Virus record (IMG/VR): IMGVR_UViG_3300029911_000147
Location: 1-23,756 of that record
Source of the DNA: a virus
Length of the DNA stretch: 23,756 bases
Strand: one strand, 5' to 3'
Shown: piece by piece, positions 1 through 17,975 of the stretch
How positions within the stretch are numbered: the stretch's first letter is position 1
Layout: each line of letters opens with the position of its first letter
Notes under the pieces: generated by a model
What the model was told of the DNA's origin: nothing
The model's input: only the letters and a program-made list of their open reading frames with translations
The model's database searches: none
Translations under genes and position numbers: made by a program

Positions 1-1310
1 GGGCTCGTGCCCGGAATCTTGACGCTGCCGCCCGACTGCAAGAGCAGCGCCATCTCTGCGGTCTGCGCCGCGAGCGCCTGGGCTTGCTCCTCTTGCTGCA
101 ATTGCGTGTTGCCGATCGCCGTGAGTGTCGCATCACCGCCCGAGAGCTCGGAGAGCGCAGCCTGTACGTTTTGCTGCTGTGCTTGGGCATAGAGCTGCTG
201 ACGCTGCACATTGGCGTTTTGGGTCATCTGCGCAATCTGCTGTTGCACGATGCCCGAATTCTGATTGCCCTCACCGTTATTCGCCGCGGCTTGCTGAATG
301 GCCTCGGACTGCTGTTTGATTTGCTGATCAATGGTCGCATCGATCGAGGACTTTTGACTCGCCCACTCCGGTGTCGCCGTGCCGCCCGACTGAATCACCG
401 AGGTTGCGCCCTGCACGCCGGCCGTCGCCGCGGCGGAGGCCGTCTGATCCTGGCTCGGCAATTTTGGTTTCTTGAGCGCGTTCATCAACGAAATGCCAAG
501 CAAGCCGGCCGTGGCGTCGTTTTTGGGATTCTTGAAGAAGTTCTCGAGCTCACTGCCAAAACCATTGGAACCCGCGCCCGCGGCCGGAGCATTGGGGTCG
601 ATGCCGGTCGAGGCCGGATCCACCGCAGCATTCGAGGCGTCGAAATCGGTGAATCCGCCGGTGGAGGCGTCCGGCGAGGAGAGCCCCAAGGACTGCGCCA
701 CATCGGGGCTCAAGCTCTGTAGCGACGGCCCGGCGTCGTTTGCGGATAAGAATTGACCGCTGTCCAAGGTCTGACCGGTGTCAGTGATGCCCGCCGGCGT
801 GTTGTTCGCCGTCAGCGCCCCGCTGGTCGGCGTCGCCACCCCGGCACCCCCGCCACCCGCCGCGCCGCCGGCCAAGAGCCCCGCGCCCGCCACCGGCGCC
901 AGACTATCGATCAGGCCGCCGGTCGCGGAGCCGCCCGCAGCCACACTCCCGGGCGCTGTAGAGGCCGCGGTGACGGTCTGTTCGGGAAGTGTGGCAGTGG
1001 CCGCCCCTGCGCCACCCGCCGTGCCCGCCGCATTGGGGTCAACCGGCGAGCCCAAACCGGAGGTTGCCGAGGGTGCCGCCACCCCGCCGGTGTCAGCCCC
1101 CGCGGCGCCCGTATCTAGGCCGGCGCTCGTAGCATCCGCGCCGCCAAAAGCACCGGCCGCATCCGCCGCACCGACACCCGCCGCTGCCGCGCCGCCCACC
1201 TCCGCTGCCGCGTCGCCCACCTCCGCCACCGTGCCCGCATCGCCCAAAACCTCCGCCAAGGTGCCGATAACATCGGTGACCGGACATTCGAGGAAATACA
1301 GGCGTGGCAT
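1..1310 (-). CDS. Ala/Gly/Gln-rich virion-associated protein, probable DNA-ejection/internal protein (C-terminus cut by window edge)
   Basis: The reading frame is open from ATG at 1310 to the left edge, giving at least 436 residues. The start overlaps the stop of the upstream GNAT gene (TGATG). The first ~200 residues are Ala/Gly/Thr-rich low complexity. A central acidic linker leads to a short hydrophobic stretch (AGLLGISLMNAL, around residue 265). After that comes a long Gln/Ala-rich helical region with coiled-coil character (QQQIAQMTQNANVQRQQLYA and following) that continues to the edge. I recognise no enzymatic motif. In podoviruses the gene after the nozzle is often an internal or ejection protein, and the composition fits, so that role is inferred from context. 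A tail-fibre-associated protein is the alternative. Because the frame is edge-open, its C-terminal domains are unknown. Confidence 0.75.
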   Translation of the reverse strand, partial: MPRLYFLECPVTDVIGTLAEVLGDAGTVAEVGDAAAEVGGAAAAGVGAADAAGAFGGADATSAGLDTGAAGADTGGVAAPSATSGLGSPVDPNAAGTAGGAGAATATLPEQTVTAASTAPGSVAAGGSATGGLIDSLAPVAGAGLLAGGAAGGGGAGVATPTSGALTANNTPAGITDTGQTLDSGQFLSANDAGPSLQSLSPDVAQSLGLSSPDASTGGFTDFDASNAAVDPASTGIDPNAPAAGAGSNGFGSELENFFKNPKNDATAGLLGISLMNALKKPKLPSQDQTASAAATAGVQGATSVIQSGGTATPEWASQKSSIDATIDQQIKQQSEAIQQAAANNGEGNQNSGIVQQQIAQMTQNANVQRQQLYAQAQQQNVQAALSELSGGDATLTAIGNTQLQQEEQAQALAAQTAEMALLLQSGGSVKIPGTS

Positions 1311-1783
1311 CACAGCTTTTTCTCCATGACGATTTCATCGTCCACGTAGCCGCGAGACTTCAAAATTGCGTGGATGCGGCTTTCGCGGTGCACGAACCAC
1401 CCCATATAGACCACACCTTGCGCGCGAAGCAATCGCTCGCACTCTTTCAGTAGGTCAAAAACAATCTGCCCAAAACCCGGCTCATCCTTGACATAGATCA
1501 TGTCACCGTGCCCGGTTTTGACCGTCTTGTGGTGCAGACTGTAGCTCGTGAAGTAGATGGCATAGCCGACCAGGCGCCCACCTAAGCGCGCGGTGACGCA
1601 CGTCACCAAATCCATCGCATCGAGCTTTTGATACTTCTCAAAATTAGGATCTATGGCCAATTCACCGATGTAGCTTTCCGTGCGCACCCAGTTGTCTTGC
1701 AAGAGTGGCAGGAGCTCGGCGCACAGCGCTTCGGAGTAGCGCTCACGCGCAATCGTCACTTGCGGCCGAACTTGTGCATTCAT
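1310..1783 (-). CDS. GNAT-family N-acetyltransferase-like protein
   Basis: This 157-residue protein starts at ATG 1783, which overlaps the previous stop as ATGA. The frame could extend upstream, but the coupled ATG matches its neighbours. The pattern fits small phage GNATs: a central beta-strand pair (LVGYAIYF), an acidic strand DMIYVKDEPGFGQ, a helix FDLLKECERLLRAQG, and a C-terminal ILKSRGYVDDEIVMEKKL resembling the closing GNAT strand, helix and strand. The acetyl-CoA loop, normally [RQ]xxGx[GA], is degenerate here (EPGFGQ). Small GNATs are known just after tail-neck genes in several podoviruses, where their substrate is unknown. Possible roles are acetylation of a virion protein or of a host target. 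Confidence 0.75.
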   Translation of the reverse strand: MNAQVRPQVTIARERYSEALCAELLPLLQDNWVRTESYIGELAIDPNFEKYQKLDAMDLVTCVTARLGGRLVGYAIYFTSYSLHHKTVKTGHGDMIYVKDEPGFGQIVFDLLKECERLLRAQGVVYMGWFVHRESRIHAILKSRGYVDDEIVMEKKL

Positions 1784-2184
1784 GTGAGCCCCAACTGCTG
1801 ATACTCGAAGTCGTGCATTTGCTGGTGCACGTACATCCAATCGTAAAACTGACCCGCGGAGGAGAAGTCCGCAATCGACAAGTCGGGCGCCGTCGTCGGG
1901 GTGGAGCCGAGCAGAGTATAGCTTTGATTGTGCATATCGGCATGCACATTGAGCCAGTCTTGCAATGCGATCGGTACCGGCGAGCCCGGCTTGGCCTTTT
2001 TCATGAGCTCGAGCCACGCCTCCTCCGCAATCTGCGAATCGATCCCGAAAGTCGACACCGGCACACCAAACTTGGCCGTGAGCGCATTTGCCGTCTCGAG
2101 GTGTACAAAGCGGTGCGTGAGCAGAAAATTTTGCAAGCCCTGGCGATCATTGAACCCCGTGCTCGCGGCCAAATCGATGTTCAT
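1780..2184 (-). CDS. Small helical protein with three HxxxH motifs, virion-module hypothetical
   Basis: This 134-residue protein has ATGA overlaps at both ends (with the nozzle-like gene upstream and the GNAT downstream), so it is firmly embedded in the virion operon. It holds an internal duplication: residues 75-93 and 114-132 both fit DW[LM]xVHxxMHxxxYxxLG. A third, more divergent HxxxH lies at H24/H28 (THRFVHLE). The three i/i+4 histidine pairs on predicted helices suggest metal binding or a conserved helical packing motif. There is no signal peptide or membrane segment. I recall related short phage proteins beside neck genes but cannot name a family. Being a real gene is well supported, while the function is unknown. 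Confidence 0.82.
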   Translation of the reverse strand: MNIDLAASTGFNDRQGLQNFLLTHRFVHLETANALTAKFGVPVSTFGIDSQIAEEAWLELMKKAKPGSPVPIALQDWLNVHADMHNQSYTLLGSTPTTAPDLSIADFSSAGQFYDWMYVHQQMHDFEYQQLGLT

Positions 2185-4178
2185 TGCAGCTTGTCCCGAT
2201 CGCCCGATTTGCCACGGAGCGCGAGCATGTTGATTTGCGTCATGTCGGTCGAGCCGGTGGCCGTGAGCCCCAAGTATTGCGTGCCGCCATTGTTTGCCGC
2301 CGAAGCGTTGAAGTGATAGCCCGCGGTGACACTAGTCAGTGGCGAAATGACAGCGGGTTCGGTGTTGATTTCCGTGTCTACGTTCAAGGTGACGCCGACA
2401 TTGGTGCCGGACCACGTGCCCGCGATCGCGGCGTTGATCGATTGCTTGTCATGGGTCGGGGCGCCGGCGTCCCACAGCTTGGACTTGATCAACCAGGACG
2501 CGAGCGCCGATGCGGGATTGAACGCACGGTACAGTGAATTCGTCGCCCAGGCGTAAATCGTTGCGACACCGACCAGCACCGGCACCGAAATCATCGCTTG
2601 CGTCAAAAAATACAGATTGCTGGCACTGCCTAAGGTCGCGGTCCACCAGCGATTGCGGAAAAATAGCGCAAAGATGGTGCGCGAGGCACCCCCTTGCGTG
2701 AACACATCGTTGAGGTTGAATAAAAACGTGGCGCAGAGCTCGCCCGCCACCTGGACCTCGCAGCCGTAGGCGGCCGGAATGTCCGTACCTTGGGATGCGA
2801 CGGCGAGGTTTTGAATGAGCCCCGATATCTTGTCCGATATCTTTTCCGGTGTCGCACCCGCCAGAAGGTAGAACCCCGAAGCATGGTAAAAACAAATCGC
2901 GCGATAATACGCAAACACCGAGGTCGGCGTGGAGGTGCCCACCGACGCTGTGACGTTGATGCGCGAAAACGAAGTGATGCCGGCCGCCACCGTCACATTC
3001 GAGAGTGCATCAATCGAGGTATCCCCAAAAATATACAGGTAATTGTTGGCCGCAAACAGCGCCGTGACGTTGTTGTGCAAGTACGATTCGGGAATAAAAA
3101 ACGAGCCGCCCACACCGCCAAAGGAATTGTACGAATTGATATCGGTGAAATAGACCGTGCGGCCGAACGCGATCCACACGCGCCCGGCGTACACCGCGAT
3201 CGCCGTGCCACCGATCACCCCGCTCGAGGTGACGTTCACTGCCGCCACGGTAAAAAAGAGCGCGCCGACTTGATAGCGATCGAGGCCGATCGACAATGCC
3301 GGATAGCCCGTGCCACGCGTCAAAATTGTCGCTTGGTAGGCGACCATGTGCCCCGTGAAGGTCGCGCCGGTGCCCGCCCCGGTGGTCGACGTGACATTGC
3401 CGGTGGGGCCCACTTGCACAAAAGTACCGCTGGTCGGGCCCGGGTACTCGCCGCCGGCAGTGAGCGTAATGCCCGTGATGGCGCCGGCGACGCCGACCGA
3501 GGCCACCACAATCTGCGCCGAAGTAATGGGATTGCCGTCGGTCAGGTTGATCGTGTCGCCCACAGCGTAGCCCGTGCCGGCGGCGTTGATCGTGACGTTG
3601 GTCACTTCGTAATCGGTTTGATACGAGCCGCCGGTGCCCGACGCCGGCACGTAGTGCTGTTGCAACGATGTGCCCATTGCGAGCGTGAGTGGTCCGGGCT
3701 GCAACGTCGCAAAAGCGAGCGAGCCATTTTGCGGGGTCAACGTGTTCGGCGTCGTGACGCTCCAATCCCAGTACCCCGTGGGGTCGATGATCAGCAAGCC
3801 TTGATTGCTGTACTGAGTCGCGGAAGTCTTGCCGGACGTGAGGCCCGTGATCATGGCCGTGATGGCGAACGTCGAGAGATTGACCACGTAACCGTTGCCG
3901 GTCGCGGCCCACACCGCAAAGCAGTAGTCGGTGCCCGCGACATTGAAATTTTTAACGTAGGAGGGTGAACCCGTCTCGGTGCTCACTGTCGCAAGTGCGG
4001 AGGAAGGGCCATTCACCGGCAAGAGCTTGGCACTCGCAATCGGAATGGCGTTCTCGCACCAGGCGAACTCGTTGTCGTTGATAGCCTCGCGGCCATCCAA
4101 GACATTCAAACCCGCGAACTCACGCCAAATGAACTCGGGGTTTTGCCCTCCTACATTGGATGCACCACGCGCCGCCAC
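2181..4178 (-). CDS. Nozzle/tail-tubular-B-like beta-propeller virion protein with inserted GxGY module
   Basis: This 665-residue protein starts at GTG 4178, directly after the adaptor's TAA, with GGAG 5 nt upstream. The N-terminus (FAGLNVLDGREAINDNEFAW) and the later propeller-like signatures (RVWIAFGRTVYFTDINSYNS around 333-352, YLYIFGDTSIDALS around 380-393, FYLLAGATPEKISD around 436-449) resemble P22 gp10 or T7 gp12 type nozzle proteins, which close the short tail and seal packaged DNA. The order adaptor then nozzle fits. Residues ~192-292 form a Gly-rich insert with GTGYAVGDTI, AGGEYPGPTSG and RGTGYP motifs, also seen in the two neighbouring structural proteins. Sequence identity to named families cannot be checked here, so the call rests on motif style and synteny. 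Confidence 0.75.
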   Translation of the reverse strand: MAARGASNVGGQNPEFIWREFAGLNVLDGREAINDNEFAWCENAIPIASAKLLPVNGPSSALATVSTETGSPSYVKNFNVAGTDYCFAVWAATGNGYVVNLSTFAITAMITGLTSGKTSATQYSNQGLLIIDPTGYWDWSVTTPNTLTPQNGSLAFATLQPGPLTLAMGTSLQQHYVPASGTGGSYQTDYEVTNVTINAAGTGYAVGDTINLTDGNPITSAQIVVASVGVAGAITGITLTAGGEYPGPTSGTFVQVGPTGNVTSTTGAGTGATFTGHMVAYQATILTRGTGYPALSIGLDRYQVGALFFTVAAVNVTSSGVIGGTAIAVYAGRVWIAFGRTVYFTDINSYNSFGGVGGSFFIPESYLHNNVTALFAANNYLYIFGDTSIDALSNVTVAAGITSFSRINVTASVGTSTPTSVFAYYRAICFYHASGFYLLAGATPEKISDKISGLIQNLAVASQGTDIPAAYGCEVQVAGELCATFLFNLNDVFTQGGASRTIFALFFRNRWWTATLGSASNLYFLTQAMISVPVLVGVATIYAWATNSLYRAFNPASALASWLIKSKLWDAGAPTHDKQSINAAIAGTWSGTNVGVTLNVDTEINTEPAVISPLTSVTAGYHFNASAANNGGTQYLGLTATGSTDMTQINMLALRGKSGDRDKLQ
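3303..3605 (-). other. GxGY glycine-rich beta module inserted in the nozzle-like protein
   Basis: This stretch encodes nozzle-like residues ~192-292: TNVTINAAGTGYAVGDTI, then GAITGITLTAGGEYPGP, then GTGATFTG and ATILTRGTGYP. The cycle is the same as in the adaptor insert: a GxGY turn, a strand, a Gly/Ala-rich strand, a hydrophobic strand, then the next turn. Its boundaries are approximate. Confidence 0.55.
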
Positions 4179-5051
4179 TTAAGCTCCATACACATCGGGC
4201 AGGCGCCCGGTGTAGGCGGCAACGACTTCACGCACGCGACGCTGGTACTCGCCCAGTTTCTTTTCCGCCTCACCGTAGTTTTGCGCGTTCGACTTGGCGA
4301 GGTACGCCGCATAGAACTTGACCGGATCTTGGCTCATCACCGGAATCGCATCGTTGGTCGTGGTATCGCCGGTGACGAATGGCGTGGGCAAAATCACCGA
4401 ATCGATTTCAATCGCGTAGGTCTGATCCGGCGTGGGTCCAATGAAAAACTGGTTGTCGCCGTAGACCGCCCAGGCAACCGGCTGGCGCTGGTAAGACGCT
4501 GCGGTGAACGGGCGAAACCACGCGGAGAACTGACGCCACGGGTACCACTGCAAGGTGTAGCGCTCGGTGCCCCACAGCAAATTGATCGACAAAATATCGT
4601 AAGTCAGGACATTGATGACCCCGACTTGCACCGTGGCGCCCGCGCCGGCGCCAGAATCCGAGACAGTGGCGACGGGAGCAGTGACATAACTGGACCCGTT
4701 GTTCGTGAAAGCAATAGCGTTGACCGCACCACCACTTTGCGAAAGCGTTGCTGCTACGCCCGAGCCTCCGCCGCCACTGAAAGCAACCGACGGACCCGAG
4801 TAGCCCGAGCCTGCCGTAAGAATGATTCCGCCCGCCACTTGGCCAAACGTGTACTGCTCCACCCCTTGGGAACAAAACGTCTGTTGGAGGTTGCGCAAGC
4901 AGCCCGTGTCCATAACGGTCTGCTTGCGAGCTTCATTGATGTAGCCGTCGACTTGCGGCAAGGACCATCGCAGGGCCGTCGGATCGTGGAGCTGGTCAAG
5001 TACCTGAAACTCATACGTGCCGGGTGTGGTGGAGGGTCCAAGCGTGGTCAC
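4179..5051 (-). CDS. Head-tail adaptor protein (P22 gp4 / T7 gp11-like position) with inserted GxGY module
   Basis: This 290-residue protein starts at ATG 5051. Residues 10-60 are helical (YEFQVLDQLHDP, GYINEARKQTV). The C-terminal half has the phage adaptor pattern: INLLWGTERYTLQW, WRQFSAWFRP, PVAWAVYGDNQFFIGPTPDQ followed by TYAIEID, and a final helix DPVKFYAAYLAKSNAQNYGEAEKKLGEYQRR. Adaptors of this type bind the portal and receive the nozzle, which agrees with the next gene. Residues ~73-146 are a Gly/Ser/Ala-rich beta insert (GSGYSGPSVAFSGGGGSG, then GSSYVTAPVATVSDSGAGAG). It sits between two halves of a beta region that would otherwise be nearly continuous (EQYTFGQV and VINVLTYDIL). The adaptor role is well supported by motifs and order. 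Confidence 0.8.
   Translation of the reverse strand: MTTLGPSTTPGTYEFQVLDQLHDPTALRWSLPQVDGYINEARKQTVMDTGCLRNLQQTFCSQGVEQYTFGQVAGGIILTAGSGYSGPSVAFSGGGGSGVAATLSQSGGAVNAIAFTNNGSSYVTAPVATVSDSGAGAGATVQVGVINVLTYDILSINLLWGTERYTLQWYPWRQFSAWFRPFTAASYQRQPVAWAVYGDNQFFIGPTPDQTYAIEIDSVILPTPFVTGDTTTNDAIPVMSQDPVKFYAAYLAKSNAQNYGEAEKKLGEYQRRVREVVAAYTGRLPDVYGA
4614..4835 (-). other. GxGY glycine-rich beta module inserted in the adaptor
   Basis: This stretch encodes adaptor residues ~73-146, with two cycles of GS[GS]Y-x3-(A)P-V. The cycles are separated by GGGGSG, a small-residue strand and a GGAVNAIAFTNNG strand. It is one of three such modules in adjacent structural genes. Its boundaries are estimated from where the canonical adaptor pattern stops and resumes. 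Confidence 0.6.
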
Positions 5052-5055
5052 GACT

Positions 5056-5379
5056 TTAAGCTATTTCAGTGGTATCCACGGCCGCCTGATCCAAAATCGA
5101 GGAACGCGACACCATGACGGCTTCATCGAACTCGAAGCCGGCGAGCTTGCTGATCCCTTCGGGGTCGTCAGTGAATTCCTTTTTCACAGAATCGTAGCGC
5201 GTGGCCCAGCCCAAGCGCACCAGCACTTCGGTTTTGTCCGGCATATTCCAACCAAAGCAGTGCGACGCCGCGGCTTTGGACAGGTAGACCTTCTTCCCCG
5301 GCGGGAAAACAAAATCCTCGCCGTCGTAACGGTCAGTGTGGATAAAATCGTTGGTGTTCGTGACGAAAATACCATCCAT
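5056..5379 (-). CDS. Conserved phage hypothetical protein, capsid/neck region
   Basis: This 107-residue protein starts at ATG 5379, with GGAG 7 nt upstream. It lies just after a terminator and 4 nt before the adaptor gene. The core FVTNTNDFIHTDRYDGEDFVFPPGKKVYL...AAASHCFGWNMPDKTEVLVRLGW resembles a short beta-rich protein I recall near capsid genes of many podoviruses (FPPGK, then an Ala-rich helix with FG, then a DK...RLGW helix). No function is known to me. It has no membrane segment or signal. A head-completion or neck role is possible from position only. Confidence 0.82.
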   Translation of the reverse strand: MDGIFVTNTNDFIHTDRYDGEDFVFPPGKKVYLSKAAASHCFGWNMPDKTEVLVRLGWATRYDSVKKEFTDDPEGISKLAGFEFDEAVMVSRSSILDQAAVDTTEIA

Positions 5380-5441
5380 AGGTCAACTCCGGGTGGTGTG
5401 GTTTGAGAAACGCGCGGCCCGACGGCCAAAATTCTCTTGGC

Positions 5442-5470
5442 AAAAAGCGACCCCGGATGCAGCTCCGGGG
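5442..5470 (-). terminator. Rho-independent terminator after the decoration-protein gene
   Basis: On the minus strand, CCCCGGA-GCTGCA-TCCGGGG (5470-5451) makes a perfect 7-bp GC-rich stem with a 6-nt loop. It is followed by TCG-CTTTTT. It begins 7 nt past the stop of the 5478-6770 gene and separates the capsid group from the neck/tail group. The three bases between stem and U-tract make it slightly weaker than ideal. Confidence 0.7.
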
Positions 5471-5477
5471 CATTGGA

Positions 5478-6770
5478 CTAGAACGTCTGCAAGCGGCAGT
5501 AGTCTTGCGCGCCGCCGACCGTGAAGGTTGAGGCGTTCGCGGTGCCGGGCGCGGCCGTGCCGTTCGGGATCGCGGTGTACGTCGGAATCGCTTGAAAGTT
5601 CACCCCTTGGAACGGACCCGACAGCGCCGGCACGCCGGTCGCCGTGGTGATGGTCAACGGTGGATACACCGGGATCGACAGCTGTTTGTCGTACATCGGA
5701 TTCGTGTTGGCAGCCGCACCCGCGACGATGCCACCGTTGATGACTCCGCCCGGCGTGGTGCCATAGCCCGCGCCTGGCGTACCCGCGACGCCAGTGATCG
5801 TGAAATTCATGATCGCCGTGGCGGTCGGTGCCGGATTGCTCGAGCCGCCGTAGGTAAACGTCGGTACCGCGGTGAGCGGCGTGCCAAAGTAATACGGCCA
5901 CATCAGCAGCACCGTGCCCGAGCCGACTTGCGCATTGTTCGCCGCGAGCCAGCCAATCACTGCGCCGCCACCGGTGGTGTCGCCGGGTTGCGGAATCACT
6001 ACGACGCCCGGCAGCCCCAAGAGCCCCGCGCCCTGATTGAGCACGGTGATCGAGGAAATGGCGCCGGCCGAAATCGCGCAAATGGCAGTCGGCAAAAGGT
6101 ACGGCTGCGCGCCTTGATTCGGCGGCGGCGAGAAAACGATCAGCGGCGGCTTGGTGTAGCTCGCACCGGCAGAGGGGATCGCGCCACCCGCGGTCGCGCC
6201 AAAGGTGCCGGTTATTCCGTAGTTGCCGTTATAGACCGCGGCACCGGAGAACGACATGGTGGTGCTCACCGCGCCGCCCACAATCGCATTCCACAGCGAG
6301 CCGCCGGCCGACGGAGTGATGGTGAACACCGCGTTGCCGATAGAGGTGATGCCGTTTTGAATGACAACCGCGCCGCCTTGGCCGGCACCGAATGAGGAAT
6401 AGCCGTAAAAGCCGTTGGTGCCGGCGGAGCCGGCGCCCGTGATCAGTGCGCCGATCGGGCAGCCGGTGGAGTTCGCAATGCGGAAATTAGCCCCGTCCGC
6501 CGAGATGGTGACCAGCTGCATGGGCCCCACGTTGACGTTTTGCCAGTAGTTCAAGCCCACGTCGTACATTTGCAGTACGGAATATTGCCCCAGCTGCAAA
6601 AAATATTGCCCCGAGAGCTGATTGTTGGTGCCGAGCTGCGGCGAGGATATTCCGCCAAACCCGCCGATTACCCCTTGGCCGGCTGGCAAAATGAAAGACT
6701 CGCCGGCGCCCATGCCAACCGGGAGCATCTGATAATTGTTGCCTTGGCCTGAGATATCCATGAACCCCAT
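5478..6770 (-). CDS. Probable capsid decoration / head-fibre protein with GxGY modules
   Basis: This 430-residue protein starts at ATG 6770, 9 nt after the major capsid stop, with an AGGAG-type site (TAGGAGCGTCACATG). The N-terminal ~110 residues (ESFILPAGQGVIGGFGG, GQYSVLQMYDVGLNYWQNV, TISADGANFRIANSTGCP) resemble the N-terminal head-binding region of capsid-associated proteins I recall from other podoviruses (pattern Q-YD-W then DG-N-R-N-TG). The rest is Gly/Ala/Thr/Pro-rich beta repeats with several G[AS][GS]Y/L-x-x-P units between residues ~195 and 345. The protein is depleted in charged residues, as expected of an assembled surface beta protein. Its place right after the capsid gene supports decoration or a head spike, though the exact role is unproven. 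Confidence 0.7.
   Translation of the reverse strand: MGFMDISGQGNNYQMLPVGMGAGESFILPAGQGVIGGFGGISSPQLGTNNQLSGQYFLQLGQYSVLQMYDVGLNYWQNVNVGPMQLVTISADGANFRIANSTGCPIGALITGAGSAGTNGFYGYSSFGAGQGGAVVIQNGITSIGNAVFTITPSAGGSLWNAIVGGAVSTTMSFSGAAVYNGNYGITGTFGATAGGAIPSAGASYTKPPLIVFSPPPNQGAQPYLLPTAICAISAGAISSITVLNQGAGLLGLPGVVVIPQPGDTTGGGAVIGWLAANNAQVGSGTVLLMWPYYFGTPLTAVPTFTYGGSSNPAPTATAIMNFTITGVAGTPGAGYGTTPGGVINGGIVAGAAANTNPMYDKQLSIPVYPPLTITTATGVPALSGPFQGVNFQAIPTYTAIPNGTAAPGTANASTFTVGGAQDYCRLQTF
5736..6188 (-). other. GxGY-type glycine-rich beta modules in the decoration protein
   Basis: These encode residues ~195-345, with turns at GASYTKPPLIVFSPPP, GAGLLGLPGVVVIPQP and GAGYGTTPGGVI. Gly/Ala strands and an AGAISSITVLNQG strand separate them. 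This is the third copy of the module type in the same operon. The units are more diverged than in the adaptor. Confidence 0.5.
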
Positions 6771-6779
6771 GTGACGCTC

Positions 6780-7796
6780 CTAAATCGCGACGAATGTGAA
6801 GCCGGTGACGACCGTGCAAACTTTCGGCTTCGCCAAGACCAGCTCGAGCAGCGAGAGTACCGCGCCGATATAGCCAATCTGATAGTTCGACAGTGTGCTC
6901 TCGAATCCGGTGAACGCAAACGCCGCGCGCTCGTGGATGTAGAAGGCGAGGTACCCGGTGTTCAAGAGGTACATCGTGCCCTCGGGCACGTAGGGATCCA
7001 TGTAAATAGGGATTCCCGACACCATGCACGCACGGAAAGCCGAACGCGCACCCCAGGGCTCATCGTCAAAGCCCTTCTCTGGCGTGACCACATAGGATTC
7101 GTTCGCCAGGTAATCGTTTTGCAACGTTTGCCACGTGGCCGGACCCATGATGCCGAAGGTCGGGAGCTCGCCGCCGTACTTGAACGTGCCCGTGATGTAT
7201 TGCGCGACCAGCGCGCGAGTCGGGTTCACACCACCCGCGGCGTAGCGCTTCGCTTTCAACCAGGGGTTGGTGGTGCGCGACTGGTTGCCGTACAACACCG
7301 AGTTCGTGCCGTCATCGACTGCCGCCGGCAGGCCGATGATCTGTGCCGTATTCGACACATTGTTCAAAAGGGCAGTGGCGACACCATCGCAGTAGACGTT
7401 TCCCGCATCGTTCATGCGCGCCGCCAACAACGGAATGATCTCGTGCGCGTCTTGGATCAATCCTTCAAACCCCAAGTACGGAATCGGGATTACTGCGCCC
7501 TTCAAGTTGAACTCGAGGTTGGTCACTGCCGGCTGCACTGCCGGCTGGTTGAATGAGCCGTCGTACCCGACCCATTGCAAATTGACGAATTGCGAGCCTT
7601 GTGCCGGAATCGTGACACTCGACACACCGCCGGAGGCGGGCTGCGAGTTCGCAATCAGCGCTGCGGCCAGCGGCGAGGTGTTGTAGAGCTGCACCACGAG
7701 CTTTTTGACGAACGCGCGGCGCACCACATATTGGAGTTCGGCGCCTAAACTGTTGACGCCACCTGACGGGACGATACCTGTACCCAAGACCGGCAT
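6780..7796 (-). CDS. Major capsid protein (HK97-fold type)
   Basis: This 338-residue protein starts at ATG 7796 with a strong TAGGAG site 7 nt upstream. Features matching HK97-fold capsid proteins without a fused protease or delta domain are an N-terminal arm with LGAELQYVVRRAFVKKLVVQ, a beta E-loop-like region (VSSVTIPAQGSQFVNLQW), and a spine helix (FEGLIQDAHEIIPLLAARMNDA). A P-loop-like region and a C-terminal beta segment with SGIPIYMDPYVPEGTMYLLN and ERAAFAFTGFEST follow. It directly follows a scaffold-like gene, as usual. Conserved WQTLQNDYLANES and YVVTPEKGF look like A-domain elements. Length and synteny agree with podoviral capsids. Confidence 0.85.
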   Translation of the reverse strand: MPVLGTGIVPSGGVNSLGAELQYVVRRAFVKKLVVQLYNTSPLAAALIANSQPASGGVSSVTIPAQGSQFVNLQWVGYDGSFNQPAVQPAVTNLEFNLKGAVIPIPYLGFEGLIQDAHEIIPLLAARMNDAGNVYCDGVATALLNNVSNTAQIIGLPAAVDDGTNSVLYGNQSRTTNPWLKAKRYAAGGVNPTRALVAQYITGTFKYGGELPTFGIMGPATWQTLQNDYLANESYVVTPEKGFDDEPWGARSAFRACMVSGIPIYMDPYVPEGTMYLLNTGYLAFYIHERAAFAFTGFESTLSNYQIGYIGAVLSLLELVLAKPKVCTVVTGFTFVAI

Positions 7797-7816
7797 AGCA
7801 AACTCCTAAAAAGTCT

Positions 7817-7843
7817 CGGGTGCGCGCCGGTCAAACACGCCCG
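7817..7843 (-). promoter_or_regulatory. Hairpin in the leader of the major capsid gene
   Basis: On the minus strand, CGGGCGTG (7843-7836) can pair with CGCACCCG (7824-7817) with one C/A mismatch and an 11-nt loop. The next bases are AGA-CTTTTT, and the T-run adjoins the capsid gene's AGGAG site. It could be a leaky terminator or a stabilising/processing hairpin that sets capsid versus scaffold dosage. Only the foldback is seen. Confidence 0.4.
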
Positions 7844-7856
7844 AAACGGTGAAAAA

Positions 7857-8450
7857 CTAAGCTCGCCCTGCGCCGAGCCCCGCCACTTTACCTGAGGAAA
7901 TCTCGTTCCAAGCGCTAAACGCTTCGTTCATCGCAATCTTGTCGAGTGCGGCCTTGTTGCCGATGCCCTTGCCCCAAATGTCTTTTTCAGGGAGCTCGAA
8001 AGTCGGCGGATTGAAGTGCACCGGGGTCGGCGTCGCGCTTTCGCGGCTCGCGGCATAAACGGTCGCCGCGGTGTCGTGTGACCAATTCTCATCCTTGTGC
8101 TCGAGAATCAGCGCTTCGACTTTTTCGACGTCTGCATCGGTCAGTTTAAACTTCGCCTTGATCGATGCGCGGCGCTCTTTCACGTTGTCGCGCGCCTCGC
8201 GCTCCATCAGCTTGCGCTCGAGCGCCTCGCGCGCCTCGCGTTCTGTCTTTATTTCCCCGCGCAGCGCCGTCTTGGCGTCGAATTCGGGGATCGAGAGATT
8301 CGGGTTGGCCTTTTTGACGAGTGCCTGCCACTGTTCGCGCAGTTCCGGGTTTCGGGCCATCAGGCCGACCAGCTCCGCGGCGGGCTCCATCTGCTTGGCC
8401 TTGGCCAAGAGCTCATCGACGGTGCAATCCTCCAGAGTTTTGCCCGCCAT
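7857..8450 (-). CDS. Scaffolding-like protein
   Basis: This 197-residue charged protein starts at ATG 8450 and lies directly upstream of the capsid gene. Residues ~64-98 (RGEIKTEREAREALERKLME, continuing into REARDNVKERR) form a strong helical coiled coil. A helical FKLTDADVEKVEALILEHK and a Pro-rich linker (SATPTPVHFNPPTFELPEKD) follow. The C-terminal tail is short and helical. Size, charge, coiled coil and position match phage scaffolds that template procapsid assembly and then exit or are degraded. No serine-protease motif was noticed, so a protease-scaffold fusion is unlikely. Confidence 0.75.
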   Translation of the reverse strand: MAGKTLEDCTVDELLAKAKQMEPAAELVGLMARNPELREQWQALVKKANPNLSIPEFDAKTALRGEIKTEREAREALERKLMEREARDNVKERRASIKAKFKLTDADVEKVEALILEHKDENWSHDTAATVYAASRESATPTPVHFNPPTFELPEKDIWGKGIGNKAALDKIAMNEAFSAWNEISSGKVAGLGAGRA

Positions 8451-8453
8451 GAC

Positions 8454-8636
8454 TTAACCCCGGCCGCCGTGCGGTTTCGAGATGGTCAGCGGGTTTTTCT
8501 GCGCGATGCGCGACGGCTTATCGAGGCCGCCATGCTCCGCATAGCGCGGGGGATTGATGATTTGACCGTTGTCCTTTTCGGGATCGGTCGGCTTGCGCAG
8601 CCCGGAGGTCGAAGGTTCCAAATAACGTGCCGGCAT
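8454..8636 (-). CDS. Small hypothetical protein between scaffold and Gly/Pro-rich protein
   Basis: This 60-residue protein starts at ATG 8636 with AAAGGG 6 nt upstream and ends 3 nt before the scaffold start. It is polar, Pro/Lys-rich and probably disordered (STSGLRKPTDPEKDNGQIIN). It has no recognised domain. Operon position and ribosome binding site make it credible. It may be a minor head component or a linker peptide. Confidence 0.65.
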   Translation of the reverse strand: MPARYLEPSTSGLRKPTDPEKDNGQIINPPRYAEHGGLDKPSRIAQKNPLTISKPHGGRG

Positions 8637-8646
8637 AGAAAACCCT

Positions 8647-9123
8647 TTAGGCGCCTGGCGCCGGTTGCTGCTTCGCTTGGGAAAGCTGTTTCATGATCGC
8701 TTGCTGTGCCGAGGTGCCGCCGCCCATCTGCGGCATGCGCCGCACCATTTGCAAAATTTCGGCCGGCACCAAGTCGGAGGAATCCTTCTTGGCTACCATG
8801 CTGCCGAGCATCTTAAGCGCTTTGAGGATTTTGTCACCTTCCGGCGACTCTGAGCCGAACGCGGGCAGCGCCTCCTCGAGCATGTTCACGGCGATGTGAA
8901 TGTTGGTTTGCGCTGCGGCTTTGACTCCGCGCTTATCCTGGGGTGTCGACATAGGCGCCGCTGCCGGCGCTTGACCCGGAGGTTTTTGGCCGGGCTGCTG
9001 GGCGCTCGCGGCTGCTGGACCCCCCGGTCCTGGCATGGCGGATGGCGGCTGCGCACCACCGCCGGGCGGGCCGCCTCCGGCTCCGCCCATCATCTGCTGC
9101 ATCAACTCGGGTGACACAGCCAC
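8647..9123 (-). CDS. Gly/Pro-rich N-terminus plus helical domain, portal-region hypothetical
   Basis: This 158-residue protein starts at GTG 9123, 3 nt past a small basic ORF. Only a weak GCGAG-type site is visible. Residues 1-60 are Gly/Pro/Ala/Gln low complexity (GGAGGGPPGGGAQPPS). Residues ~65-125 form a compact helical domain (NIHIAVNMLEEALPAFGSES and PEGDKILKALKMLGSMVAKK). A Gln-rich tail follows. I recall a similar arrangement beside portals of other podoviruses (paired helices with LP-G-ES-G), but I know of no function. It could help portal or scaffold assembly. Confidence 0.75.
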   Translation of the reverse strand: MAVSPELMQQMMGGAGGGPPGGGAQPPSAMPGPGGPAAASAQQPGQKPPGQAPAAAPMSTPQDKRGVKAAAQTNIHIAVNMLEEALPAFGSESPEGDKILKALKMLGSMVAKKDSSDLVPAEILQMVRRMPQMGGGTSAQQAIMKQLSQAKQQPAPGA

Positions 9124-9314: not shown

Positions 9315-9470
9315 CTAACTGCGCGCAGATTTGGAACGCGAGCCGTGGGGGCGCGCCATGCGAATCTTGAACTTGCCGCGAGGTGAGTGGTTGAAATCGC
9401 GCTTGTAGGCGTGGCCAGGCTGGTGCTTACCTTCGCCTTTCTTGGCCCGATCGATCATTCGTTCCTGCAT
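9315..9470 (-). CDS. Small basic protein after the portal
   Basis: This 51-residue protein starts at ATG 9470, overlapping the portal stop as TGATG, and ends at TAG 9315. It is strongly basic (RAKKGEGKHQPGHAYKRDFN, RGKFKIRMARPHGSRSKSAR). No domain is recognised. The overlap with the portal argues for translation. Its charge suggests contact with DNA or with acidic head proteins. Confidence 0.65.
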   Translation of the reverse strand: MQERMIDRAKKGEGKHQPGHAYKRDFNHSPRGKFKIRMARPHGSRSKSARS

Positions 9471-11185
9471 CATTGGTGTTTACCCTTGTGCGCTGCCGGT
9501 TTTGCGTGACCACCTTGGGCCTGCATCTGCATTTCCATTTTCTTCGCCTCGAGTTCCTGCGCCTCGAGCTTTTTCAACCGCTCTTTCATGTCCTGCAAGT
9601 TGGGCGGATCGAACATATCGAGAAGCGTCTCGCGATCGATCGCGTGGGCTTCGAGCAAAGTGATCGCATCGTGCTTTCGATCCTCGACAAAAATGGGGCT
9701 CGAGGAGTGTGCATCGACCTTCACCTCGTAGTCCCGTGTAAACTGTTCAGCCGTGAATGTCAATTCGGTGGCCGCGCCACCGGCGTGCACCTGGCACTGA
9801 AAACGCTGCTCGGAGTGATCTTGAGTCAAGCGTAACATTTGCCCGGCAATTTCCTCCGCCGACTCCTCGACACTGATAGCGCGTTCCTTGGGTCGCGAGC
9901 TCCCGAGCCGGGCCATCAAATCAGCCTGGCCGCGGCTGCGTACCCCGGGCTCACCCTTGCCTTGCAGTACATGCCCGAGGCCCGCGCGATCGTCGAACAT
10001 CGCATCGATCTGGCTCATTTCAGCAAAAATATCTGACGGCATGGTCGGCGCGTGTTGCTGCACCTTGGCGTTCGGCGTCGGGAAATTCACCATGCCGCCC
10101 GCCGCGCGCAGCGCCGCCATTTTCTCCTCGCTGATCCCCGTGCCGCCGGTGACCGAGGTAGGCGGATCCGCCTGCTTGTTCAAGATCATGCGCACCTGCG
10201 CCGTGCGCTCGGTGCGCCAGTCTTGCAGCCACGTCAGCTGCGCGACGAAGGAGTCGCCCCAAAAATAATCGTAGAGGTTGAACGCTGGCCTGATCACCGA
10301 GAACGGCGCGATGCCTTGCACGTGACCCATCCAATTGCTGGGCCGGTCATAAATCACCACATCGGGCGCGGCGCGGGTGAACACCTGATAGTCGTCCATG
10401 TCATCGACCCACACGTACAAGTCGCACATGTCGATCAAGTCGACGTCGATCTGCGGCGAATAGTCGTACTGCGGGCCGCGCCCTGCGCCTCCGGTGCCGC
10501 CATCGACACCGGACATTTGTCCCGGGATCGCCACGGATCCCGGCACTCCGCCGACCGGTGAGCCGATGATCAGACGCGACAGCCCCGTGGATAATTGCGG
10601 CAGCTGATCCGTGGAGGAGCGCCCGACCCGACGCAGGATGTCCGCGCGCCGCGGATTGCCGATGAGGTTGGCTTCCAACTGGGTTTTGGTGATCGTGTAG
10701 TGGTGCGTGAACGCCTCTTGATCCGCGAGCTCCATCACATCCTCGCGCAGCACTCCGAACTGATGCGGCTCCACGAGATTCGTGCGCACCCGGTTTTGCA
10801 CCCAGCGGGTTTTGACCAGCATCGTGCCGAACACCTGGCTCCAACGCACGCCAAGCCCAAACAGCGTGTGCGTCTTGGATGCGCGCCACTGCTCGGTGAC
10901 TTCTTTGGCGAGCGGCACGGATTTGGCAATGTCGTCGATCGGCGCTTCGGTACCGATGTGCAGCGAAAAACGCATCGCATCCGGCGAATAAATGAAACTC
11001 GAGAGCGTGTCGACCGTGCTGCCGATCTTATTGTACGGTGCGCCGCGCGCATCCTGACTGCCGAACAAGTAATAGTTACGCAGGATTTGATAGAAGGTGA
11101 ACCGGTCGCGCCGTGAAGCCGTGCACTGCCGCACGAGCTCGTTGACCAGCGTCGCTCGATCAACAATGTCTTTAGGCAGCTGCAC
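9470..11185 (-). CDS. Portal protein
   Basis: This 571-residue protein starts at GTG 11185, overlapping the previous stop as TAGTG. The portal ring sits at one vertex, takes part in packaging and anchors the tail. Signatures are RRDRFTFYQILRNYYLFGS and PYNKIGSTVDTLSSFIYSP near residues 26-68, the acidic wing/stem region IDVDLIDMCDLYVWVDDMDD (~246-265), PFSVIRPAFNLYDYFWGDSF (~294-313) and LTWLQDWRTERTAQVRMILN. The conserved GVRSRGQADLMARLGSSR and PKERA (~414-436) follow, then a C-terminal coiled coil (~533-559, KERLKKLEAQELEAKKMEMQ). The position after terminase and before scaffold is standard. Length fits P22/podovirus-type portals without a long barrel. Confidence 0.85.
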   Translation of the reverse strand: MQLPKDIVDRATLVNELVRQCTASRRDRFTFYQILRNYYLFGSQDARGAPYNKIGSTVDTLSSFIYSPDAMRFSLHIGTEAPIDDIAKSVPLAKEVTEQWRASKTHTLFGLGVRWSQVFGTMLVKTRWVQNRVRTNLVEPHQFGVLREDVMELADQEAFTHHYTITKTQLEANLIGNPRRADILRRVGRSSTDQLPQLSTGLSRLIIGSPVGGVPGSVAIPGQMSGVDGGTGGAGRGPQYDYSPQIDVDLIDMCDLYVWVDDMDDYQVFTRAAPDVVIYDRPSNWMGHVQGIAPFSVIRPAFNLYDYFWGDSFVAQLTWLQDWRTERTAQVRMILNKQADPPTSVTGGTGISEEKMAALRAAGGMVNFPTPNAKVQQHAPTMPSDIFAEMSQIDAMFDDRAGLGHVLQGKGEPGVRSRGQADLMARLGSSRPKERAISVEESAEEIAGQMLRLTQDHSEQRFQCQVHAGGAATELTFTAEQFTRDYEVKVDAHSSSPIFVEDRKHDAITLLEAHAIDRETLLDMFDPPNLQDMKERLKKLEAQELEAKKMEMQMQAQGGHAKPAAHKGKHQ

Positions 11186-11724: not shown

Positions 11725-12150
11725 TTAAACTCCTCGCAGTCTCGGGCCCAACGTCGTCACATCAATCTTGAGCCGAATGCTCCGCGCATGGGGCGCCGGG
11801 CCCGTCGTGGCAGCCATTTGCGCCAATGGCGCGTCGCACGAATGTGGGTTGAGGATACGCCATTCGTCGTGGACTTTCGCCTTGACCAACGCGCCCGTAT
11901 CCCAGCCATGAAAAAACCTCGAGAGGCCCAACTGCTCGGTTTTGGTCATCGGCCGCGGCACGGCAATCACCCCGCAGCGGACCAACGTGTTCAATTCGAT
12001 GCCAATATAGCGCGCAATGTCGGTGAGGCGCAAAACCGACTGATACGGCGAGTCTTTGGGCAACTGCACTCGCAAGTGCTCGGTTTCTTGGGCGAGCTGC
12101 CTGAGCCGCCGGCGCAAATACACCTCCGATTTAACTTCCGGTGAGTCCAC
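11725..12150 (-). CDS. HTH-containing phage hypothetical protein
   Basis: This 141-residue protein starts at GTG 12150 inside the end of the terminase gene (20-nt overlap), with AAGG close upstream. Residues ~10-30 form a charged helix (YLRRRLRQLAQETEHLRVQL). Residues ~41-58 (RLTDIARYIGIELNTLVRCG) fit a helix-turn-helix. A segment resembling a DNA-binding protein's next helices follows (MTKTEQLGLSRFFHGWDTG). It could be a regulator of the late operon or a DNA-recognition component of packaging. A small terminase subunit is possible, but it lies downstream of the large subunit, which is unusual. Function is open. Confidence 0.75.
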   Translation of the reverse strand: MDSPEVKSEVYLRRRLRQLAQETEHLRVQLPKDSPYQSVLRLTDIARYIGIELNTLVRCGVIAVPRPMTKTEQLGLSRFFHGWDTGALVKAKVHDEWRILNPHSCDAPLAQMAATTGPAPHARSIRLKIDVTTLGPRLRGV

Positions 12151-13948
12151 GGACCTTCAAGCCATTCTTTTTGAGGTAGTTCACCACGGAGTTTTCCAAA
12201 GGTGTGAAAATTTTCGCCGCTTCCGCCGGCCGATTCTCGCGCGCAAAGGTGCGATTCATGGTTTGCATCTCGAGCATGATCCAGTCATTCCACGCCACCG
12301 TGCCGATCGCAAGGCCGATCACCCGATCGTCCTTGGCGCGGCCCTCGCCGCCGATGCGATCCCCGACCCGATGGATGTTGCGAAACTCCTGCACGCACAA
12401 GGGTGAATTGATTTCCACCATGTCGCGCTCGAAGTAGCTGCGCAAGGTCGACATCATGCGGATTTTCTCTTTCGGGTTCGTTTGCCACTGATAGGCAAAA
12501 TTGCCGTAGATCGAATCCTGTTTTTTCCAGAGGTAATCGCGAATGCGGCTCACCGCATCGAACGCGCCCATGCGCGGATCGCCGGGCGCCATCACACCGG
12601 TCTGCCGGCGCAGGTTGATCAACTCGTTGAACACCGCGCCCCCGGGGCCCTGCATTTCCAAGTTGAGCATGCACTCGCCATACCAGCCCGCAAGATGGGC
12701 AATCGCCCAGGCAAACTGCGCTTCATTGAAATGCGTGGTGGCGAGCTCCGCAACCTGCACAATCTTGTCAGAGTAGCAACGGCAGACGCACGCCACGAAA
12801 TTGTCCGCCCACTCCGAGGAGCCGTACGCGGGATCCGCGCCCAAGGTATAGACGCCGGACACCTCGCCCTGCTTCTCGGCTTTAACCGGGGTTTCCCAAA
12901 TCGTCACCTGCGCCGTTTCTTCGGTCGCCTCCAAGAATTGCGTGTCCTCGAAATTCATTCCAAACTGATAGCGAAAGTACAGGCACGGCTGCTTCAAGGC
13001 GTATTGATAATGCTGGTTTACGCGTTCCGCGGAGAAGAACTTCGAGCCCGACAGCTGAAAGGCGTACTCCTCGGTGGGGGGCATCTCTTGCAGCGCCATC
13101 ATTTCATCGCCCTTCATTTTCTCGGTAACGTACCAACGCCACCACGCGAGCTGCTGCGGCGTTACTTCGACCCCATATCGGCCAAAGATTTCGCCAAGCC
13201 ACACCCGCTCATCGGAGGTTGGAGTACCGTCCCAGTACGCCTTGAATTGAACCGAGTCCTCTGGCCAGGCGTAGAGTTCATTGCGCCACCAGCCAATGAA
13301 TATCGCGCACTGCGTCTCGGATTTCTTCGCGACTTCCCAAGTCTGGTAAAACATATTGTAGCCGCGCGCCGTCGACTCGAAAACGTAAAGACGCTTGGGA
13401 TTCTTTTGTGCGAGCGAATTCATCAAGGAAGCGAAGCCCTCCTCATCGCCCCAACTCGAACACTCCGTCGCGTGCAACATGTTGACGCCCTTGGCGCGAC
13501 CTAGGCCGCCTTTTTTCTTCTCGCCGGCCACCATGTACATCAGGCGCGAACGGTTCTCGAACACGATTTGCGCGCGGTTGTGGCGCTCGATCGGCGGCTT
13601 GGAGGACAAGGGCAACGATTCAATGTAACCGGAGAGGAGCGAACGAAAGAGTTCGCGGTTCTCATCATTGTCGGTGACCACGGCACCTTGCAGCCCGGGG
13701 TTTTTAAAGAGCCAGTACATATCGAGCGCGAGCATCACGGTCGAGATGCCCATCTGCCGGCCTTTCAAGATCACGAACTCGTGAATGCCTGAGTTCAAGC
13801 CCTGCGATATCTGCTCGATCGCATAGCGCTGGCTGCCCATGAAGGTCAAGGGAATGCGCCCGAGCTCTTTGGAGTCGATGATCAGCTTCGAGCAAAAGTG
13901 CTCGAATCGCGCCGCATCGAAGCCCGCCGTTTCACCGACGTCGATCAC
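12131..13948 (-). CDS. Terminase large subunit (packaging ATPase and nuclease)
   Basis: This 605-residue protein starts at GTG 13948, overlapping the zinc-ribbon stop as GTGA. The ATPase has a Walker A variant LKGRQMGIST (~61-70), Walker B MLHATE (157-162) and coupling motif FESTARG (190-196). The RNase H-like nuclease has acidic residues in LGADPAYG (D372), NLEMQGPG (E431) and AKDDRVIG (D540/D541). It pumps and cuts concatemeric DNA at the portal. The extra region between ~240 and 360 (WDGTPTSDERVWLG, PQQLAWWRWYV) is typical of large podovirus terminases. All key residues are visible and it appears intact. No small subunit is recognised upstream. Confidence 0.93.
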   Translation of the reverse strand: MIDVGETAGFDAARFEHFCSKLIIDSKELGRIPLTFMGSQRYAIEQISQGLNSGIHEFVILKGRQMGISTVMLALDMYWLFKNPGLQGAVVTDNDENRELFRSLLSGYIESLPLSSKPPIERHNRAQIVFENRSRLMYMVAGEKKKGGLGRAKGVNMLHATECSSWGDEEGFASLMNSLAQKNPKRLYVFESTARGYNMFYQTWEVAKKSETQCAIFIGWWRNELYAWPEDSVQFKAYWDGTPTSDERVWLGEIFGRYGVEVTPQQLAWWRWYVTEKMKGDEMMALQEMPPTEEYAFQLSGSKFFSAERVNQHYQYALKQPCLYFRYQFGMNFEDTQFLEATEETAQVTIWETPVKAEKQGEVSGVYTLGADPAYGSSEWADNFVACVCRCYSDKIVQVAELATTHFNEAQFAWAIAHLAGWYGECMLNLEMQGPGGAVFNELINLRRQTGVMAPGDPRMGAFDAVSRIRDYLWKKQDSIYGNFAYQWQTNPKEKIRMMSTLRSYFERDMVEINSPLCVQEFRNIHRVGDRIGGEGRAKDDRVIGLAIGTVAWNDWIMLEMQTMNRTFARENRPAEAAKIFTPLENSVVNYLKKNGLKVRGLTGS

Positions 13949-16336: not shown

Positions 16337-17437
16337 ATGGAACTCATGCAAGCCAATCACCAGTGGTCGACTCGCCCAGACGATCAGCGATTTCTGTCTC
16401 TCATTGCCTTGAACGATCACTGCGCAGCGCAACGTGCCCTATCAATCGGCAAGGTTGTATCCTCGCGTGCGCTGAGCGCATCGCCCGTCGACGGCGACAA
16501 CGAAGCCTTGATGCTCACGGGCCCGAACGGTGCGCCGGTCAACGTCACCAATTGGTCATTCGGCCAGCTGGCAGCACGTGCCGGAGCTCCGGCGGGCTAC
16601 CTTCGCAACATACCCTCACCCCTTGCCGCCGATTGCATCAACTACGGATTGCACCACGCGCGTGACGTCGAAGAATGTGGCGTGTTGCTCACGCGCGATA
16701 ACGGCTCGAATCAGCCCGCGACAGCGCGCGCCGTGACCGGCCCTAACTACGGTCGTATCTGGAACTCGACCATCACGCAAGCTCTGGTGCGTCAGTTCGG
16801 CGATGGGGTCTCAGGCACCTACCGCATACCGGGCGAGTTCGGTGTTCAAGGCAATCCGATCACCAAACAGAACACTACGCTTTATGCCAGCGATCGGGAC
16901 ATGTGGGTATTTTTGGCCGATGAAACAAACCGCATCGAATTGCCGAATCGCCGCAATGGCAAGACGGGCAGCCTTGCACGCGGTTTCTTCGCGTGGAACT
17001 CCGAGGTTGGCTCAACCACGTTCGGCCTCGGTACCTTCCTTTTCGACTTCATGTGCGGCAATCACATCATCTGGGGTGCCGAGGAATATCAGGAAATCAA
17101 AATCCGCCACACGGCGGGTGCGCCTGATCGCTGGATCGAGGAAGCAGCACCCGCCATTCGCGCCATCTCGCAATCCTCGGCTGTAGGTATCACTGAGGCA
17201 TTGCAGGCTGCACAGCTAAAGAAGGTTGAGAACGTTGACGCCTTTTTGAATGCACGGTTCACCAAATCGCAGACTTCCGCCATCAAGGCCGCGCACATGG
17301 CCGACGAACAGCGGCCGATTGAAACCTTGTGGGATGTGTCAACGGGTATCACTGCTTACGCTCGGGAAATCCAACACACTGACGACCGCGTGAAACTAGA
17401 GCGCGAAGCGGGCAAGGTGCTGAAACTCGCAGCCTGA
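16337..17437 (+). CDS. DUF932 (phage/plasmid-like) protein
   Basis: This 366-residue protein starts at ATG 16337, with AGGAG 6-7 nt upstream. The family core is clear: an early SFGQLAARAGAPAGYLRNIP (~74-93), ARAVTGPNYGRIWN, then GFFAWNSEVGSTTFGLGTFL and FDFMCGNHIIWG (~216-247), and KIRHT. DUF932 proteins are frequent in phages and plasmids, often beside radC-like genes as here. Their biochemical role is unproven; DNA-transaction or anti-defence roles have been suggested. It is the first gene of the rightward early unit and ends at a strong terminator, so it may be expressed separately from the genes after it. Confidence 0.9.
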   Translation: MELMQANHQWSTRPDDQRFLSLIALNDHCAAQRALSIGKVVSSRALSASPVDGDNEALMLTGPNGAPVNVTNWSFGQLAARAGAPAGYLRNIPSPLAADCINYGLHHARDVEECGVLLTRDNGSNQPATARAVTGPNYGRIWNSTITQALVRQFGDGVSGTYRIPGEFGVQGNPITKQNTTLYASDRDMWVFLADETNRIELPNRRNGKTGSLARGFFAWNSEVGSTTFGLGTFLFDFMCGNHIIWGAEEYQEIKIRHTAGAPDRWIEEAAPAIRAISQSSAVGITEALQAAQLKKVENVDAFLNARFTKSQTSAIKAAHMADEQRPIETLWDVSTGITAYAREIQHTDDRVKLEREAGKVLKLAA

Positions 17438-17452
17438 TCCTAAGCCTCTCTT

Positions 17453-17486
17453 TGCCAGGGTGCCCGTGGCCCTGGCATTTTCTTTT
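17453..17486 (+). terminator. Rho-independent terminator after the DUF932 gene
   Basis: TGCCAGGG (17453-17460) and CCCTGGCA (17470-17477) form a perfect 8-bp stem with a 9-nt loop, followed directly by TTTTCTTTT. It lies 15 nt past the DUF932 stop. Its U-tract is also the first part of the leader repeat shared with the gene at 18000, so read-through or a promoter right here is needed for radC. Confidence 0.85.
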
Positions 17487-17498
17487 GACCGGAGAAAA
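17478..17498 (+). repeat. Leader repeat copy 1 (upstream of radC-like gene)
   Basis: This is a 21-nt element consisting of TTTTCTTTTGACC followed by GGAGAAAA. It is identical to 17976-17996 and contains the GGAG ribosome binding site of the radC-like gene (ATG 17502). It may be a shared translational control element or the trace of a gene-cassette duplication. Confidence 0.85.
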
Positions 17499-17501
17499 TT
17501 C

Positions 17502-17951
17502 ATGAAATCCTTTTTTATTAAATGTGGTGGTCGCTATCGAAGCGCCACTCAGTCGGAAGTCTGCGAAGCAGCAAGCGCCTACATTTTCGACAAGGCAGCC
17601 AAGACGCGCCCCTTACTCAGTTCGCCAAAAGCAGCCCGCGAATTTATCACGGCGCAAGCCGGCCTCGACCATGAGCAATTCGGCATTGTGTACCTAGACA
17701 AGCGCCATCGTGTGATCGACGTCGCCATCACTGCGCAAGGCACCATCGATGGCGCCAGCGTCTATCCCCGTGCAGCGGCAGTGATCCTGTTTCACAACCA
17801 TCCGAGCGGTAGCGCGGAGCCGAGTAGCGCCGACGAATTAATTACAACGCGCCTCAAGGATTCGCTTGCACTGCTAGACATTCGGCTAATCGATCACTTG
17901 ATTGTTGCGGGAACCTCGGTCGTGTCACTTGCTGAACGGGGGTTAGTCTGA
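17502..17951 (+). CDS. radC: RadC-like JAMM-domain protein
   Basis: This 149-residue protein starts at ATG 17502, with GGAG 8 nt upstream. An in-frame GTG at 17460 lies inside the terminator and is rejected. It is a single JAMM/MPN+ domain: the metal ligands are in FHNHPSG (H98, H100), followed by SSADE with D111, plus a likely catalytic E58 in HEQFGIVYLD. It lacks the N-terminal HhH region of full-length RadC (~220 residues), as is usual for plasmid and phage copies. Once linked to DNA repair, RadC proteins have no settled activity. They commonly sit with DUF932 and anti-restriction genes. Confidence 0.9.
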   Translation: MKSFFIKCGGRYRSATQSEVCEAASAYIFDKAAKTRPLLSSPKAAREFITAQAGLDHEQFGIVYLDKRHRVIDVAITAQGTIDGASVYPRAAAVILFHNHPSGSAEPSSADELITTRLKDSLALLDIRLIDHLIVAGTSVVSLAERGLV

Positions 17952-17975
17952 TGAACGAATCAACCAGCATTCCTC

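Follow-up and report, generated by a model that had tools for sequence, protein, structure and literature searches.

Three neighbouring structural proteins encoded in a 23,756-base IMG/VR virus record from an uncultured phage (hereafter the window, meaning the whole stretch of DNA that was analysed) carry what sequence profiles indicate to be one homologous, glycine-rich beta module, in canonical form in the adaptor and a putative decoration-type protein and in a divergent form in the nozzle. At the adaptor the module is swapped at a fixed site, where homologues have it, have only a short linker or have an unrelated module instead. Overall, we read it best as an old, exchangeable surface docking domain, an interpretation to which we give roughly an even chance.

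Structural genes of the window and position of the modules

The minus strand carries the structural genes. They include those for the terminase (12131-13948), a 571-aa protein in the portal position (9470-11185) and the major capsid protein (6780-7796; phrog_9953 match, E 6e-21); after the 571-aa protein and the capsid gene follow a 430-aa decoration-type protein, a 107-aa protein, the adaptor and the nozzle. A GNAT-type acetyltransferase-like gene within the structural block (1310-2017, minus strand; phrog_1249, E 1.4e-4) overlaps a 134-aa ORF at 1780-2184. The other arm (16337-23604) has genes for DUF932, a RadC-like JAB protein, a Prim-Pol/VapE-like primase-helicase, a DUF2800 (PD-DEXK-like) protein and an Enc34-type ssDNA-binding protein. 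We identified no fibre gene within the 23,756-base window. The relatives used for comparison were metagenomic contigs; for the adaptor and the nozzle they were the best 80 of 587-595 found.

The adaptor (head-to-tail connector) gene (4182..5051, minus strand; GTG start) encodes a protein of 290 aa that scored above the curated cut-off of PF24175 SU10_adaptor in a profile search (37.3 bits versus 27, E 5e-9). Its AlphaFold2 model (pLDDT 91.6) displays the helix bundle and beta dock region of the adaptor fold, and Foldseek matched it to the podophage adaptors GP4, A4 and SU10, and also to N4 and crAss001. At the level of a predicted structure, these results confirm an SU10-type podophage adaptor. 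The two-cycle GSGY beta module, delimited by HMM, hhalign and predicted strands, occupies aa 69-148 (4608-4847, minus strand), each cycle being about 38 aa long. According to the model it is inserted between the core strands aa 53-60 and aa 150-160, where it replaces a short hairpin, in agreement with the preliminary description, which had it interrupting a beta region. Six strands are predicted within it (72-79, 88-92, 97-106, 109-120, 127-131 and 140-145; pLDDT about 95). The adaptor core is whole without the module: a 214-aa homologue from locus L016 matched SU10_adaptor end to end (62.4 bits), and a 211-aa viral homologue aligned to the adaptor model with a TM of 0.88 (by the homologue's length) and an rmsd of 2.8 (one row from a GenBank phage record was left out of the structure-model alignments). 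By analogy with SU10 and T7, we infer that the hairpin site would be the fibre-dock domain.

The nozzle (hub) gene (2184..4178, minus strand) encodes 665 aa, the body of which found no sequence-family match in family profile searches. Its AlphaFold2 model (mean pLDDT 85.6) consists of a platform and a beta-propeller, and the top 28 Foldseek matches are all chains of phage tail complexes (nozzle/hub), with the nozzles of A4, SU10, GP4, T7 gp12 and P22 gp10 at E about 1e-10 to 1e-14. Model and matches confirm the predicted protein as a podophage propeller nozzle of the T7 gp12 / P22 gp10 / SU10 gp17 type. The whole insert, as delimited by alignment A3, spans about aa 150-319 (3222..3731, minus strand) and is absent from two homologues, the nozzles of L014 and L028. 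Within it, divergent cycles of GTGY-VGD type cover aa 185-305 (3264..3626, minus strand), as placed by hhalign (2e-9) and Gp18_dom_I. The strands of the model (185-202, 209-212, 221-228, 234-241, 254-256 and 270-287) follow a long-short-long order resembling that of the adaptor module, and from the model's strand list the insert comes after the second propeller blade. In alignment A3 it stands in the same place as the canonical module of related nozzles.

The putative decoration-type protein (5481..6770, minus strand; 430 aa) is encoded between the major capsid protein and the adaptor and matched no family in family profile searches, including Pfam and NCBIfam. A two-cycle GSGY module was located at aa 187-296 (5883..6212, minus strand) by jackhmmer and hhalign. 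In alignment A7 it is flanked by a probable further degenerate cycle, GAGY, at aa 297-346 (5733..5882, minus strand), which taken alone is not significant against the adaptor module, and by a possible first, much eroded cycle at aa 104-186 (6213..6461, minus strand), which is canonical in the distant homologues L035 and L027 (..VTNAGSGYTNG..) and not significant in the window sequence itself. The module profile matched 41 of the 43 ORFs of this family in the loci; because of this, and because distant members show canonical cycles, the module is integral to the protein, with the cycles as its body, and not an insert as had been implied. The extents originally assigned to the module in the three genes were otherwise roughly right. 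The first 100 residues of the decoration-type protein form a conserved N-terminal domain (..LPAGQG..GQY...LGQYT.LQ.YD...YWR..), for which no family was matched. Small genes occupy the position of the decoration-type gene in MW202825 and MW202753.

Relatedness of the three modules

The modules had been recognized by their GxGY turns. The literal motif is weak evidence, its counts being close to chance (GxG[YF] in the three proteins against shuffles, p 0.04, 0.27 and 0.68), and it is the profiles that carry the case for homology. An HMM built from the adaptors of five other phages matched the window's adaptor module at 5e-27; the modules that it retrieved belong to adaptors, nozzles and decoration-type proteins, and none of its matches was a reversed decoy. 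Direct alignment of the window's adaptor and decoration modules gave a z-score of 6.9 (0 of 500 shuffles). A jackhmmer search started from the adaptor module recruited nozzles immediately and had reached decoration proteins by round two; started from the decoration module, jackhmmer recruited adaptors, and neither search drew in a single reversed decoy. Profiles built strictly within each gene family were aligned with hhalign at 1e-15 (adaptor-nozzle), 1e-10 (adaptor-decoration) and 2e-13 (nozzle-decoration), unrelated control segments remaining below a probability of 28%.

The window's own nozzle insert found no direct match to the other two modules of the window (z 1.6 and 0.0), and jackhmmer started from it recruited only nozzles. 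The window-type nozzle profile nevertheless aligned to that of canonical nozzle modules (2e-9, 96%). On this profile evidence the adaptor and decoration-type modules are one homologous repeat. The nozzle insert is best described as a divergent subtype, since it is matched by the canonical modules of homologous nozzles and not by the window's other modules. The original claim of one module in three proteins therefore holds directly for the first pair and, for the nozzle, by way of its homologues.

Occupancy of the adaptor site

Among 163 adaptor homologues having both cores, 25 (including that of L016) have only a linker of 11-25 aa at the site, so the region is not an integral core of all adaptors, and the first module HMM matched 43. 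Most of the others have an alternative module of the type W..(V)TAG.(FV)FSNIFIY.V....G...PPYP...DGTATLQY. This unrelated, conserved module (W...AGQFVFSNIFIY.V...G...PPYP...DGTATLQY) sits at the exact adaptor site in most relatives, for example L119:6995-7843, L162:3378-4226 and L034:6042-6956. At E below 1e-3 its profile retrieved 97 ORFs but not one reversed decoy. A possible further copy was noted in the nozzle of L042 (aa 215-269, E 1.6e-4). The alternative module resembles CBM_5_12 and K1-lyase_C weakly (E 0.02-0.05, below cut-offs), the CBM resemblance reaching E 0.023 in one homologue, and has no match in the PDB.

A ranking by the full query gives module carriers an advantage; a second search therefore used only the C-terminal core of the adaptor, its sample still being ranked by similarity to the query. 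The 72 distinct adaptors of this module-blind sample comprised 52 with the alternative module, 11 with an empty site and 9 with GSGY. On a tree of adaptor cores, the three site states need five changes (none of 200 shuffles was as low); the GSGY label needs four, and well-supported branches force at least two. Since homologues without the module exist for both proteins, as had been anticipated, the module is not core in the adaptor or the nozzle. In the window's adaptor clade it was kept in 22 of 22 rows, and therefore it may be essential there.

Distribution among virion genes and phages

Co-insertion into adaptor and nozzle had been thought unusual. This was not borne out: where the adaptor carries the GSGY module (18 distinct loci), one or other module subtype is also present in the nozzle in 16 cases. 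As had been noted, such repeats do occur in other phage virion proteins. Matches to the MW202825 nozzle module include 12 or more PHROGs, which cover head closure, baseplate, tail fibre and virion proteins, and 154 phage records, almost all from marine T4-like phages; by HMM, P-SSM2 has the module in gp14 and gp7, and P-HM1 in two gp7-type proteins and gp8. Several module-bearing virion genes per genome is thus a common and known pattern, since T4-like cyanophages carry the module in several virion genes each. Unlike the longer nozzle module of MW202825, the 81-aa adaptor module gave no match in a tblastn search of phage records, possibly because of the low-complexity filter, and the window-type nozzle profile found none in two cyanophage regions. 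For the canonical form there is no Pfam or NCBIfam model, and literature searches turned up no description of the motif.

In a tree of the modules (short sequences, many weak branches), copies group by gene family and not by genome, and for this reason the spread looks old. The nozzle homologue L017:5831-7816 (MW202753.1) carries the label 'baseplate wedge initiator', probably on account of a similarity between its GSGY module and the baseplate proteins of cyanophages. In L016, the gene that follows the nozzle (7592-9031; MW202825.1, 'endo n acetylneuraminidase') contains a stretch resembling the nozzle insert of the window (E 1e-6 when composition is not corrected for), which hints at a further module-bearing virion gene. 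The module occurs widely among the virion proteins of phages and appears to mislead annotation; such names would be corrected if it were recognized as an exchangeable domain.

Possible role of the module

We propose that this small beta domain, with its two cycles of about 38 residues (long strand, GSGY turn, short strand, Gly-rich loop, strand), would be an interchangeable surface module of this phage lineage. In the adaptor it substitutes for the tip of a beta-hairpin, within the beta region flanked by helices that we presume to be the fibre dock; in the nozzle a divergent version follows the second propeller blade, at the position of the SU10 nozzle domains; and the decoration-type protein has tandem cycles as its body. 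The module most likely folds as the six-stranded barrel seen in domain I, the outward domain of the T4 tail sheath protein gp18, and we would expect this fold in the adaptor and the decoration-type protein as well. It probably projects from neck and tail, where it would not serve as core scaffold but would give tail fibres or neighbouring subunits a docking or accessory surface.

Two of the alternatives concern origin. That the modules merely resemble each other, as convergent low-complexity beta sequence rich in Gly, Ser and Thr, could be argued from the near-chance motif counts and the isolation of the window's nozzle insert; it is very hard to reconcile with ordered matches (1e-10 to 1e-15) between families whose profiles were built separately, with searches from the adaptor and decoration modules free of reversed decoys and with a globular adaptor model of high confidence. 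Equally improbable is that the module is mobile and was recently copied within the operon. Several adjacent genes carry it and the adaptor state changes repeatedly across the tree, but modules cluster by gene family, the copies within the window are far apart and no long DNA repeats link the genes; recent intra-operon duplication was rejected on these grounds.

The other two concern function. Modules on neck, tail and head might weakly bind glycans of the host surface or the environment and so raise the encounter rate, which we regard as possible, with perhaps one chance in four. The presence of the module in tail fibres and baseplates speaks for such adhesion, as do its same-site replacement by an unrelated module with weak, sub-threshold CBM_5_12 and K1-lyase_C resemblance and the host-binding CBMs in neck and tail proteins of lactococcal 936 phages (PMC6669499); yet the GSGY module itself has neither a binding-domain family nor a solved relative, and the CBM resemblance of its replacement is not significant and is accompanied by no PDB match. 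It is unlikely that the modules mainly stabilize the assembled particle through contacts between neighbouring subunits. SU10 nozzle domains do stabilize the native tail by mutual contacts (PMC9509320), a cementing role in tails has been proposed for additional sheath domains (PMC9230969) and the module is fixed in the window's adaptor clade; against this, some homologues do without it or have an unrelated module at the site. A docking or accessory-surface role is slightly favoured over adhesion to hosts or glycans because of the position of the module and the precedent of T4 gp18.

More speculatively, and with somewhat less likelihood than even the stabilizing role, a gp18-domain-I-like barrel might be a general 'plug' of tailed phages: with the same module on adaptor, nozzle and a capsid-side protein, one partner (e.g. 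a folded-back fibre) could dock along the whole particle, the adaptor site being a hot spot at which unrelated docking or adhesion modules are exchanged. The variation among homologous adaptors, whose site may hold the module, an unrelated one or neither, makes the function of T4 sheath domain I and its relatives testable.

Comparison with known systems

In T4 gp18, domain I (98-188) is a six-stranded barrel with a helix and is itself an insertion; it protrudes, makes no inter-subunit contacts in the sheath and binds the retracted long fibres (PMC3004832). Gp18_dom_I (PF22639) was matched by 11 of 11 window-type nozzle inserts (best 3.2e-6) and is the sole Pfam family matched by this subtype. 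The window's own copy scored 21.5 bits, under the curated cut-off of 27, and is therefore not filed as a member. The nozzle-subtype alignment falls on residues 100-151 of gp18, placing the GxxYAVGD turn inside domain I, and is weak alone (probability 14%); the adaptor model gave weak Foldseek matches to gp18 chains (3fo8, prob 0.77, E 0.09). Insertion into another domain and, for the adaptor module, six predicted strands are further likenesses. Unlike T4 gp18, the carriers here are podophage proteins, an adaptor and a nozzle, instead of a contractile sheath, and canonical GSGY modules have no gp18 match by sequence, so the sequence link is direct for the nozzle subtype only.

SU10 offers the same pair of proteins and an adaptor core of the same family. 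Its nozzle domains lie between blades 2 and 3 and its fibre dock is in the adaptor (PMC9509320); the insertion point after the second blade is apparently the same. The SU10 nozzle domains are, however, Ig-like, whereas here no Ig-like domain family was matched in Pfam at E up to 1, and the SU10_adaptor profile passes the adaptor site without an insert, as in its full-length match to L016.

By HMM, marine T4-like phages have the same module (phrog_460 Hc2, phrog_701, phrog_708, phrog_5342 and others). They differ in having contractile tails and in carrying it in head closure, baseplate and tail fibres instead of adaptor and nozzle. The CBMs of lactococcal 936 phages are likewise exchangeable surface modules common to different virion proteins. 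Binding has been demonstrated there, for modules whose folds are not known to be akin to that of the window's module; the latter found no match to a CBM family, another binding-domain family or a solved CBM, and PDB sequence searches with single proteins, module profiles and whole-protein profiles returned no credible solved relative. Taken with these systems, the module looks like an exchangeable surface part of a kind already seen on other phage tails.
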